NCBI GenBank assembly: GCA_027487555.1
Contig: JAIYDI010000018.1
Location: forward strand, 434,001-498,000
DNA length: 64,000 bases
Source: Hyphomicrobiales bacterium
Lineage (GTDB): Bacteria; Pseudomonadota; Alphaproteobacteria; Rhizobiales; Devosiaceae
Direction of reading: 5' to 3'
Shown here: piece by piece, positions 33,416 to 59,534 of the stretch
Numbering within the stretch: position 1 is the first letter of the stretch
How the letters are laid out: each line of letters begins with the position of its first letter
The notes under the pieces: model-generated
Database searches by the model: none
What the model was told of the DNA's origin: nothing
What the model saw: the letters and a program-made list of their open reading frames with translations, nothing else
Program-made: the position numbers and the translations under genes

Positions 33416-34492
33416 TCACGCTACCAGTTGCCCTGTTACGTTCCGCCGCGTCACCACGGCTTCGGCGAGGTTGCGCAGCGCAGTGACCGTCGAGTCCCAG
33501 TCGATGCAACCATCGGTGATCGACTGCCCATAGACCAGCGCCTTACCCGGCACGAGGTCCTGCCGGCCAGCGACGAGGTTCGATTCCGCCATCACGCCGA
33601 TGATCCGGCGGTCGCCTGCGCGCAGCTGGTCGGCGACATCGGTCAGCACGAGGGGCTGGTTCTCCGGCTTCTTCGAGGAATTGGCGTGGCTCGCGTCGAT
33701 CATCACGATCGGGCGCTGCGCCGATTTCTCGGCTTCCTTCGCCGCCGCATCGACGCTCGCCGCGTCATAATTCGTCGCCTTCGAGCCGCCGCGCAGGATG
33801 ATGTGGCAATCCTCGTTGCCGCTTGTCGTGGCGATCGCCGACCGTCCGGATTTCGTCACCGCCAGGAAATGGTGCGGCTGGCTCGCCGATTTCACCGCGT
33901 CGAGTGCAATCCGCACATTGCCGTCGGTGCCGTTCTTGAAGCCGACCGGGCAGGAAAGGCCCGAGGCGAGTTCACGATGGATCTGGCTTTCTGTCGTCCT
34001 CGCCCCGATGGCGCCCCACGAGACGAGATCAGCGAAATACTGCGGGGTCGTCATGTCGAGGAATTCGCAGCCCGCCGGCAGGCCGAGATTGTTCACATCG
34101 AGCAGCAGCGAGCGGGCGAGCCGCAGGCCCTGGTCGATATGGAAGCTGCCGTCGAGGTCGGGGTCGTTGATCAGCCCTTTCCAGCCCACCGTCGTCCGCG
34201 GCTTCTCGAAATACACCCGCATGACGATCTCGAGCTCGCCCGCCAGCTCCTCGCGCAGGGCCGCAAGCCGCTTCGCGTAGTCGATCGCCGCTTTCGGGTC
34301 GTGGATGGAGCAGGGGCCCACCACCACCACTAGGCGGTCGTCATGGCCGGAGAGGATATTGTGGATCGCGTGGCGCGAGGTCAGCACGGTGCGGGTCGCC
34401 GCATCTGTGCGCGGGCACTCGCGGATCACCTCCTCGGGCGATCTGAGTTCGCGGATTTCGGTGATGCGCAGGTCGTCGGTGGATTTCAGCAT
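33416..34492 (-). CDS. aroG: 3-deoxy-7-phosphoheptulonate (DAHP) synthase, class I
   Basis: The first enzyme of the shikimate pathway, joining PEP and erythrose 4-phosphate. The 358 residues show the AroF/G/H pattern: VVVGPCSIHDPKAAIDYA, RVYFEKPRTTVGWKG, SCPVGFKNGTDG, MIDASHANSSKKPENQ. It is preceded by a short aromatic-rich leader ORF and an intrinsic terminator, so expression is likely set by charged Phe, Tyr and Trp tRNAs as well as any allosteric feedback. Confidence 0.95.
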   Translation of the reverse strand: MLKSTDDLRITEIRELRSPEEVIRECPRTDAATRTVLTSRHAIHNILSGHDDRLVVVVGPCSIHDPKAAIDYAKRLAALREELAGELEIVMRVYFEKPRTTVGWKGLINDPDLDGSFHIDQGLRLARSLLLDVNNLGLPAGCEFLDMTTPQYFADLVSWGAIGARTTESQIHRELASGLSCPVGFKNGTDGNVRIALDAVKSASQPHHFLAVTKSGRSAIATTSGNEDCHIILRGGSKATNYDAASVDAAAKEAEKSAQRPIVMIDASHANSSKKPENQPLVLTDVADQLRAGDRRIIGVMAESNLVAGRQDLVPGKALVYGQSITDGCIDWDSTVTALRNLAEAVVTRRNVTGQLVA

Positions 34493-34527
34493 GTCGTCGG
34501 CTCCTCGGAGTTCTGGGGCACCGGCGA

Positions 34528-34560
34528 CGAAAAAGCCGCCAGGTGGCTGGCGGCTTTTCG
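34528..34560 (-). terminator. attenuator terminator ahead of aroG
   Basis: AAAAGCCGCCA/TGGCGGCTTTT, an 11-bp stem with a 6-base loop followed by a T-tract on the minus strand. It lies 36 bp before aroG and 26 bp after the leader ORF stop. GCTGGC at 34607-34612 in the leader can pair with GCCAGC in the terminator 5' arm, giving a candidate antiterminator. Confidence 0.82.
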
Positions 34561-34586
34561 GGTAACTTGGCGTTTGGCTTTTCAGA

Positions 34587-34661
34587 TCAAACGTTCCCCT
34601 CCGGCTGCCAGCGGCTTCCGTTGCTAAAATACCAATAGAAGAAGGTGGCGCGGAGGTTCAT
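34587..34661 (-). CDS. aromatic leader peptide of aroG (attenuation)
   Basis: A 24-codon ORF, MNLRATFFYWYFSNGSRW..., ending NV-TGA. Codons 7-12 are Phe-Phe-Tyr-Trp-Tyr-Phe, with a further Trp at codon 18: seven aromatic residues in 24. It ends 26 bp upstream of the terminator stem. Shortage of any charged aromatic tRNA should stall the ribosome and allow the antiterminator. The ribosome site is poor (AGGCCTC), and the transcript may start at or very near this ATG, as reported for rhizobial trpL. Confidence 0.82.
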   Translation of the reverse strand: MNLRATFFYWYFSNGSRWQPEGNV

Positions 34662-34669
34662 GAGGCCTG

Positions 34670-34698
34670 TGTGTAATGGAGGAGGCCAGCTTTGTCAC
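34670..34698 (-). promoter_or_regulatory. candidate promoter for the aroG leader
   Basis: GTGACA and TACACA are spaced 17 bp apart on the minus strand, and a start 7 bp later would fall at about 34663, two bases before the leader ATG. The -10 match is weak. The -35 overlaps the stop codon of the upstream MarR gene. Confidence 0.35.
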
Positions 34699-35159
34699 GC
34701 AGGAATCGCGGCATCCTGTTCGGCCGCCGCGGCCTTGATCGCGGCGAACACCTTCATCGCACCCTCGATGTCGCTGACTTCAAGTCCCTTGAATACTTCG
34801 GCGCGGATGCCACGCAGGTCATCCGCTACCGCACGCACAACCTCGATGCCATAGGCGGTAAGCGACACGATATTCGCGCGCCGGTCCGTTGGGTCCGGCT
34901 CGCGACGCACCAGGCTCAATCCTTCGAGTTCATCAATCAGCCGCACCAATGAGGCGCCTTCGATGCCGCATGCCTCCGCCAGTACGTTCTGGCGCACATT
35001 GTCGCCCAACCTTTCGATCCAGGTGAGTGGCGAACTCGCGGCCTCCGACATTCCGTGTCGAGCCGCCGCTGCGCGCGCGATCTTCCGCCAGAGCCGGCCT
35101 GTCAACAGCAGGTCTCGCGTCATCTCGCGCAGCTGATAGGCGTTGTCACGCGTCGGCAT
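34695..35159 (-). CDS. MarR-family transcriptional regulator (2)
   Basis: A 154-residue winged-helix regulator. The DNA-binding region is VLAEACGIEGASLVRLIDELEGLSLVRREPDPTDRRANIVSLT. It ends 34 bp before the aroG leader ORF. Regulators of this type are often near a transporter they control, but none is adjacent here. Confidence 0.9.
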   Translation of the reverse strand: MPTRDNAYQLREMTRDLLLTGRLWRKIARAAAARHGMSEAASSPLTWIERLGDNVRQNVLAEACGIEGASLVRLIDELEGLSLVRREPDPTDRRANIVSLTAYGIEVVRAVADDLRGIRAEVFKGLEVSDIEGAMKVFAAIKAAAAEQDAAIPA

Positions 35160-35449: not shown

Positions 35450-35593
35450 ATGAACATCCGTCAGAAATTCGCTCAGTTTGCCGCCTACAACCGCACCGTC
35501 CGCGAACTGAAGCAGCTCAGCACAAACCAGCTGCGTGATCTTGGCATCGATGCCGCCGACATCAAGATTGTGGCTAAGGCAGCTGTGCTCTAA
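35450..35593 (+). CDS. DUF1127 small protein
   Basis: 47 residues, MNIRQKFAQFAAYNRTVREL then KQLSTNQLRDLGIDAADI, the classic DUF1127 (YjiS-like) pattern. Such proteins are abundant in alphaproteobacteria, and studied members affect RNA turnover and phosphate or stress responses. AGGGGA precedes the ATG, and a strong terminator follows 32 bp after the stop, so it is monocistronic. Confidence 0.93.
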   Translation: MNIRQKFAQFAAYNRTVRELKQLSTNQLRDLGIDAADIKIVAKAAVL

Positions 35594-59458: not shown

Positions 59459-59534
59459 GGGCCTATAGCTCAATGGTTAGAGCCGACCGCTCATAACGGT
59501 CTGGTTCCAGGTTCGAGTCCTGGTGGGCCCACCA
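59459..59534 (+). tRNA. tRNA with CAU anticodon, probably tRNA-Ile2
   Basis: A 76-nt cloverleaf with acceptor GGGCCTA/TGGGCCC, D arm GCTC/GAGC, anticodon stem GACCG/CGGTC with loop CTCATAA, T arm CCAGG/CCTGG and encoded CCA. The CAU anticodon with this body looks like alphaproteobacterial tRNA-Ile2, whose C34 is modified to lysidine to read AUA, rather than a Met tRNA. Automatic annotation may call it Met. Confidence 0.93.

Follow-up and report, generated by a model that had tools for sequence, protein, structure and literature searches.

An open reading frame (ORF) of 24 codons lying just upstream of aroG in the window (the whole 64,000-nucleotide stretch of DNA that was analysed) appears to be the leader of a ribosome-mediated transcription attenuator controlling aroG, a reading to which we assign a probability of about 0.9. 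The locus has a short leader ORF with clustered codons for amino acids that are products of the pathway, an intrinsic terminator between this ORF and the gene (by sequence and folding) and, as judged computationally, an antiterminator that excludes the terminator and becomes available when a ribosome stalls at the control codons. A preliminary description of this DNA had proposed an attenuator with Phe/Tyr/Trp control codons ahead of aroG, and that proposal now has strong support from conservation, from the pairing of the RNA and from its geometry; the 24-codon ORF on which it was based, with Phe-Phe-Tyr-Trp-Tyr-Phe at codons 7–12, was confirmed at 34661–34587. The attenuation mechanism itself is classical and of a kind already known. 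The order on the minus strand is MarR-family gene, promoter-like GTGACA/ATTACA, 24-codon ORF, terminator hairpin and aroG, and the individual elements are as follows:

34695–35159, minus strand: MarR-family regulator gene, directly upstream of the leader (Pfam MarR_2, 41.5 bits)
34693–34698, minus strand: −35 like element GTGACA, which includes the TGA stop (34695–34697) of the marR-type gene (from conservation)
34672–34677, minus strand: −10 like element ATTACA, 10 nt before the leader ATG (position similar in relatives, by eye)
34587–34661, minus strand: leader ORF, 24 codons, ATG...TGA, MNLRATFFYWYFSNGSRWQPEGNV (ORF reading, letters checked)
34651–34656, minus strand: segment 1 (CCUCCG), pairing with CGGAGG at 34603–34598 within segment 2 (from the fold)
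34626–34643, minus strand: putative control codons Phe-Phe-Tyr-Trp-Tyr-Phe, codons 7–12, TTC TTC TAT TGG TAT TTT (from conservation in relatives)
34596–34612, minus strand: segment 2 (GCUGGCAGCCGGAGGGG), predicted antiterminator strand inside the ORF (from its duplex with segment 3)
34560–34562, minus strand: CCC, extending the antiterminator via GGG of segment 2 (from the duplex)
34546–34554, minus strand: segment 3 (GCCGCCAGC), terminator 5′ arm and antiterminator partner (from folding and the duplex)
34531–34558, minus strand: intrinsic terminator hairpin (segments 3:4), AAAAGCCGCCAG-CCAC-CTGGCGGCTTTT, with a T-run to 34530 (from sequence and folding)
33416–34492, minus strand: aroG, class I 3-deoxy-7-phosphoheptulonate (DAHP) synthase, the putatively regulated gene (TIGR00034, 528 bits against a cutoff of 173)

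DAHP synthase is the entry step to the aromatic amino acids. The aroG product scores 549 bits against the AroG equivalog NF006723, slightly below its cutoff of 568, and its best named match (among the best 80 of at least 591 stretches, from named genomes) is that of Devosia insulae at 85% identity, which makes it probable that the genome belongs to the Devosia family. The leader had been described as preceding the first shikimate enzyme, which is right in that aroG encodes a DAHP synthase, but this is one of two such enzymes: a class II DAHP synthase family match was present in 58 of 61 genomes, that of the window included (56 above the cutoff), and as the class II enzyme is encoded elsewhere in the genome the switch in the window would govern one isozyme of the two. 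For the 30 best class II upstreams, class II DAHP synthase was rejected as a second attenuated gene, as none of them had five or more aromatic codons in eight and one had four or more (gene starts approximated, the window genome's own class II gene not included); another scan window gave two weak matches in 30. The product of the MarR-family gene scores 57 bits against NCBIfam SlyA, below the cutoff of 120. A 47-residue ORF of the DUF1127 family lies at 35450–35593 on the plus strand (Pfam PF06568, 42.6 bits); after it a GC-rich inverted repeat with T-run was noted by eye.

When the 420 nt ahead of aroG in the window were dinucleotide-shuffled, an ORF with six aromatic codons in eight arose in 0/1000 shuffles and one with five or more in 1/1000. 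The 4.53-Mb assembly contains the pattern [FY][FY][FY]W[FY][FY] a single time, at the leader ORF. Five or more aromatic codons in eight were found in 126 of 150 distinct aroG upstreams from many genomes against 8 of 750 shuffles, and in 109 of the 132 fetched by aroG protein. These results bear on the idea that the hairpin is merely the ordinary terminator of the marR-type gene, the ORF a product of chance and the aroG promoter located after the hairpin. The marR-type gene does lie directly upstream on the same strand, with its stop at 34695–34697, but the shuffles argue against a chance ORF, a conserved promoter-like motif precedes the leader in relatives scanned within 60 nt of its ATG, and as the upstream gene is listed as divergent in one Paracoccus record the hairpin there is not that gene's terminator. 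We consider this explanation very improbable.

Class I aroG was found by AroG protein search in 30 of the 61 genomes, that of the window included (31 places, 30 fetched), and the upstream regions of the 30 loci (the window's own and 29 others) were aligned. The conservation check called for in the preliminary description did not refute it, as a short ORF with at least four aromatic codons in eight lies upstream of aroG in 30/30 loci. A covariance model of the leader built from 27 of the 30 loci matches 111 of 136 family genomes at E≤0.01, the weakest matches being terminator-end pieces. In a 397-genome sample of the order every one of the 59 class I aroG genes is preceded, 33–62 nt before the protein match, by a full-length match to the leader (worst E 6.8e-12), and there are at least seven other full-length matches: three before tyrS, one second copy and three weak. 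The model matches 13 of 289 genomes of a class sample at E≤1e-4 (eight at 1e-13 or better, that of the window included) and 31 of 299 genomes of a phylum sample at E≤1e-6, irrespective of the downstream gene; 18 of these 31 are genomes of the window's order or class, its own included. Two loci in relatives may be recorded in their own right. In a relative with a 2.0-Mb genome (G138) a drifted leader precedes an aroG that has in-frame stops (L243:928–1481). At the second leader copy, in G471 (L237), the first codons past the leader look, by eye, like the AroG N terminus, and tblastn for an aroG remnant at this copy gave no aroG match.

The composition of the aromatic block was compared across 87 distinct alphaproteobacterial leaders and 40 from elsewhere. 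Trp followed by F or Y (once N) is present in 81 of the 87; the codon columns were anchored on Trp, so that its constancy within the 81 is by construction. The codon after Trp is Tyr in 77/81 (TAC 40, TAT 37), the second after it is Phe in 77/81 (TTT 75, TTC 2), and the codon before it is Y in 37 and F in 36; overall F or Y occupies positions −1, +1 and +2 in 73, 80 and 78 of the 81. Judged by these TAC/TAT swaps at kept Tyr and by the interchange of F and Y, the aromatic block is conserved at the codon level. All three amino acids are represented in the block in 82 of the 87 alphaproteobacterial leaders and 21 of the 40 others, of which a further 18 have Phe and Tyr without Trp and one has Phe and Trp; W is present in all nine xanthomonad peptides listed. 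The second Trp of the preliminary description is indeed present (TGG at codon 18), but its role as a control codon did not survive comparison, because the CGCTGGC in which it lies is kept at the RNA level while its reading frame differs between leaders: in 55 leaders with CGCTGGC(A/G)G the frame gives RWQP in 16, is another (PLA, SLA etc.) in 38 and is the third in one. From the aligned sequences, then, conservation of CGCTGGC after the block is at the RNA level with the reading frame not kept, and the second Trp codon is no sensor. None of five leader peptides tried had a match in Pfam or NCBIfam. As an observation apart, the block (34643–34626 and relatives) favours the Phe codon TTT (145 against 37 TTC), a codon that aroG itself rarely uses (35 against 513 TTC in 89 alphaproteobacterial genes). 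Codon bias within attenuators is the subject of an earlier paper (PMC1183508, seen in part); the TTT excess may serve sensitivity or else keep the RNA unstructured.

The terminator had been described as an 11-bp hairpin with a T-tract; hairpin and T-run stand, and the stem has 12 Watson–Crick pairs including A-U ends (13 pairs with a terminal G-U when folded) rather than 11. A promoter/terminator scan of 34400–34900 returned neither, which is a limit of the consensus used by that scan. The whole-leader fold has an energy of −65.5 kcal/mol (z −3.26; as good in 2/200 shuffles). Pairing of part of the leader, GCTGGC (34612–34607), with the terminator 5′ arm was also borne out, as it matches GCCAGC at 34551–34546; the segment 2:3 duplex of the window has an energy of −20.4 kcal/mol, and the three pairs of the CCC:GGG extension form in 76.5% of the cells counted. 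Covariation of 1:2 in the 27-row alignment of close relatives (A1) exceeds that in shuffles (0.223 against 0.144, 1/500), while for 2:3 and 3:4 it is at or near the controls because of little variation among the 27 close relatives: in the terminator core four of eight pairs are invariant and one shows A-U for G-C in two relatives. Covariation as proof of 2:3 in close relatives was therefore set aside as uninformative. Across the wider set a leader's own 2:3 pairing is stronger than permuted pairings (mean −18.13 against −17.27 kcal/mol, 0/5000 permutations, shared ancestry uncorrected), and the own pair beats a foreign one in 9300 of 15778 single comparisons (58.9%), a modest effect. Of 129 leaders, 109 have a GCGG/CCGC core; the other 20, the window's included, were dropped from the position count. 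The first position beside the core is G-C in 103 and A-U in four, and the second is U-A in 67, C-G in five, A-U in two, U-G in two and unpaired in 33, in a count for which the best-pairing core was chosen and which leans towards pairing. A GTCGCCGG-like stretch past the T-run (34528–34521) can pair with segment 4, the terminator 3′ arm. In 87 alphaproteobacterial loci this duplex averages −12.2 kcal/mol against −8.0 for shuffled downstream sequence, and it is weak in 40 other loci (−7.5 against −6.6); it is perhaps a 4:5 hairpin of the readthrough RNA.

The effect of ribosome position was modelled by folding each transcript through segment 3 while masking 27 nt as the ribosome footprint (an equilibrium model with an assumed footprint). 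Over 127 distinct transcripts the mean probability that segment 3 is sequestered fell from 0.72 with the ribosome on the aromatic codons to 0.33 once it stood on later ones; at the stop it was 0.38, and without a ribosome 0.47. The aromatic codons score above the stop in 115/127 and above no ribosome in 117/127, and the stop scores as high as or above them in 12/127. As codons ahead of the block reach much the same score, it is codon identity alone that marks the aromatic codons as the sensor. The model fits the classical order in which readthrough would give way to termination as the ribosome leaves the block. Transcription would begin at or just upstream of the leader AUG and a ribosome would load onto the nearly leaderless RNA and begin translation. 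When charged tRNA for Phe, Tyr or Trp is scarce the ribosome would stall on codons 7–12, covering segment 1 and leaving segment 2 free to pair with segment 3 as this emerges from RNA polymerase, and the 2:3 pairing would block terminator 3:4 so that aroG is transcribed. When aromatic amino acids are plentiful the ribosome would pass segment 2 and reach the stop codon; segment 2, masked by the ribosome or captured by segment 1 after release, would be unavailable, and the terminator would form and end transcription before aroG. The codons suggest in vivo sensing of all three amino acids, and a response to each of them singly is predicted, so that the attenuator would act as an OR-gate with aroG on when any one aromatic amino acid is short.

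An alternative is that the attenuator senses only part of this set, mainly Trp or Trp and Phe, and that the other aromatic codons are passengers. Trp is kept in 81/87 alphaproteobacterial leaders while F and Y interchange beside it, and in the window leader modelled stalling is weak at the final two aromatic codons: sequestration is 0.86 at F7, F8, Y9 and W10, 0.50 at Y11, 0.13 at F12 and 0.11 without a ribosome, so that Y11 and F12 may not act. Against this, F or Y is held at the three positions around Trp through synonymous changes, as counted above, and the 18 of 40 non-alphaproteobacterial leaders with Phe and Tyr only indicate that F and Y codons are maintained without Trp. Partial sensing seems to us the less probable reading, at about one chance in four, and sensing of all three amino acids is preferred.

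The preliminary description had also placed the transcript start at or within a few bases of the leader ATG. Of 88 alphaproteobacterial loci, 68 have TGACA no more than 60 nt from the leader ATG, against 0/88 shuffled, and 62 of these sites lie at −34 to −36; this spacing points to a start at or within a few bases of the AUG in alphaproteobacteria. The −10 like element is GCTACA or GCTATA in relatives. Outside the alphaproteobacteria TGACA was found in 2/40 loci, i.e. the motif was not seen there. A Shine–Dalgarno energy of −5 kcal/mol or lower is found for three of 88 alphaproteobacterial leaders against 68 of 89 aroG starts, and the attenuator transcript is probably leaderless in this class. 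As described in the parts of the literature available, Sinorhizobium meliloti trpL/rnTrpL is a leaderless leader ORF with a terminator in an alphaproteobacterium, and has Trp codons and controls trpE(G) (PMC7298713, PMC10117765). A small ORF at the presumed transcript start followed by a terminator is the layout of rnTrpL/peTrpL in these same sources, which would favour a second role in trans for the products of the aroG attenuator, with the peptide serving as a regulator and the terminated transcript as a small RNA. From one relative to another, however, the C-terminal half of the peptide is read in different frames, and we regard such action as unlikely.

Of the 80 named loci, kept as the best of at least 591 stretches, 61 have leader plus terminator ahead of aroG, and named genera with leader counterparts include Bradyrhizobium, Mesorhizobium, Methylosinus, Xanthomonas, Massilia and Paraburkholderia. 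The combination was not found in the other 19 of these 80 (L189, L190, L192, L200, L208, L209, L211, L216, L218, L223, L226, L228, L229 and L231–L236), among which are Pantoea, Enterovibrio, Photobacterium, Colwellia, Chitinimonas, Thauera and Ferrovum; the upstream of L211 is only 52 nt, and L229 has the aromatic ORF with the hairpin absent by the rule used. No leader preceded aroG at the small number of enteric, Vibrio-type and Colwellia loci in the sample (L226, L228, L231, L233, L236). In all, 171 loci gave 150 distinct upstreams, of which 130 have leader plus terminator (113 of 132 when 18 upstreams from leader-model loci are excluded); L124 has a leader-model match and no ORF by the rule used, and L120 has no aroG match. 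On a tree of 99 AroG proteins (the 80 named and 19 chosen, those 19 all with leaders) leader presence needs seven changes (L211 not counted), and one side of a branch with an SH-aLRT of 99 holds 48 rows, alphaproteobacteria and xanthomonads, all with the leader. Four of 91 matching records were looked at: both Paracoccus records, which are plasmids, have the leader with an SFYWF block (the small ORF is not listed there, in a gene table that is incomplete), and the second aroG genes that Cupriavidus sp. EM10 and Caballeronia sp. NK8 carry on large plasmid records show no aromatic leader.

We lean towards the view that these leaders form an old, undescribed attenuator family by which alpha-, beta- and xanthomonad proteobacteria control class I DAHP synthase by default, with the sensed set retuned by lineage. 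If so, the set would be Phe, Tyr and Trp in alphaproteobacteria and xanthomonads and Phe and Tyr with or without Trp in Burkholderiales, the leaders would form a natural series in which the sensed set changed, and one leader would integrate all three end products where the shikimate pathway begins. In lineages spread across these three groups, with Bradyrhizobium and Mesorhizobium as legume symbionts among them, all three products appear to be read together by a single RNA switch. In the available parts of the sources the E. coli DAHP synthase isozyme genes are repressed by TyrR and TrpR (PMC5343134, PMC11802643), and some lineages of the enteric, Vibrio-type and Colwellia kind have TyrR or TrpR as a known or predicted regulator (PMC5343134); the attenuator would offer control of aroG without these repressors.

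The preliminary description doubted that this was a standard annotated element, which holds for Rfam, as neither the leader nor any of 20 relative loci matches a family at gathering, but not for the idea of attenuating a DAHP synthase gene, which is already known. Nor does the leader match a T-box or known riboswitch family, the whole window at Rfam gathering giving only a tRNA (59459–59531). The E. coli pheL type (RF01859, Phe_leader) is likewise a leader peptide attenuator of an aromatic gene, but with Phe codons and pheA as target (PMC11878033, in the part available). The window has a weak full-length match to RF01859 (23.3 bits, E 0.072), one of eight weak Rfam matches of which the unrelated RNAI has a better E (0.024), and membership was rejected as the score is far below the gathering score of 55. 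The other known systems are compared as given in the available portions of the sources, the first two below being the nearest precedents. The Corynebacterium glutamicum aroR-aroF attenuator, credited to Neshat 2014 (PMC11802643) and predicted in PMC4046766, also has an aromatic leader peptide attenuating a DAHP synthase gene and acts under Phe limitation (PMC11802643); compared by description, it differs in having Phe-Tyr-Phe with no Trp named and in belonging to another phylum. Acholeplasma aroF uORFC-13-1 is a predicted uORF with a Phe codon and a terminator before a DAHP synthase gene, but comprises 24 sequences from Acholeplasma and unassigned environmental sequences only, with at least one Phe codon and no Tyr or Trp codon named in that account (PMC8632094). 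Attenuation is listed for aroF of E. coli and Shewanella, that of Shewanella annotated as ‘Attenuator sensing tyr-tRNA’ citing Camakaris 1980 (PMC2659441), and a 2005 table gives predicted attenuators, from Merino's website, before aroA-Iα-Y/tyrA of two Vibrio species (PMC1173090). These cases share with ours a proposal of attenuation for a gammaproteobacterial class I type DAHP synthase gene, but are from other lineages and no Phe-Tyr-Trp leader is given in the parts available. In such parts a proteobacterial regulon survey names attenuation for trp and pheA, and Naville and Gautheret 2010 (PMC2965389) mentions no DAHP synthase; the terms sought were absent from the main text of a Burkholderia cenocepacia start-site paper. 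Among the matches listed from open-licence full-text literature we recognised no account of a Phe-Tyr-Trp leader before aroG, and a pan-aromatic leader ahead of the class I DAHP synthase gene of alpha-, beta- and xanthomonad proteobacteria seems not to have been described.

A further observation concerns the leader-model matches before tyrS. In three genomes of one genus in the window's order, Tyr/Phe-rich leaders (e.g. MTKMSASFVYFYYVTDIPAAA) with a terminator lie directly before the gene for tyrosyl-tRNA synthetase:

L238:926–1045: tyrS leader (leader-model match)
L239, 3235–3353, minus strand: tyrS leader (leader-model match)
L240:909–1027: tyrS leader (leader-model match)

The ORF at L238 scores 350 bits against TIGR00234 (cutoff 114), and tyrS at L239 and L240 was identified by eye. 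These leaders probably constitute a separate attenuator.
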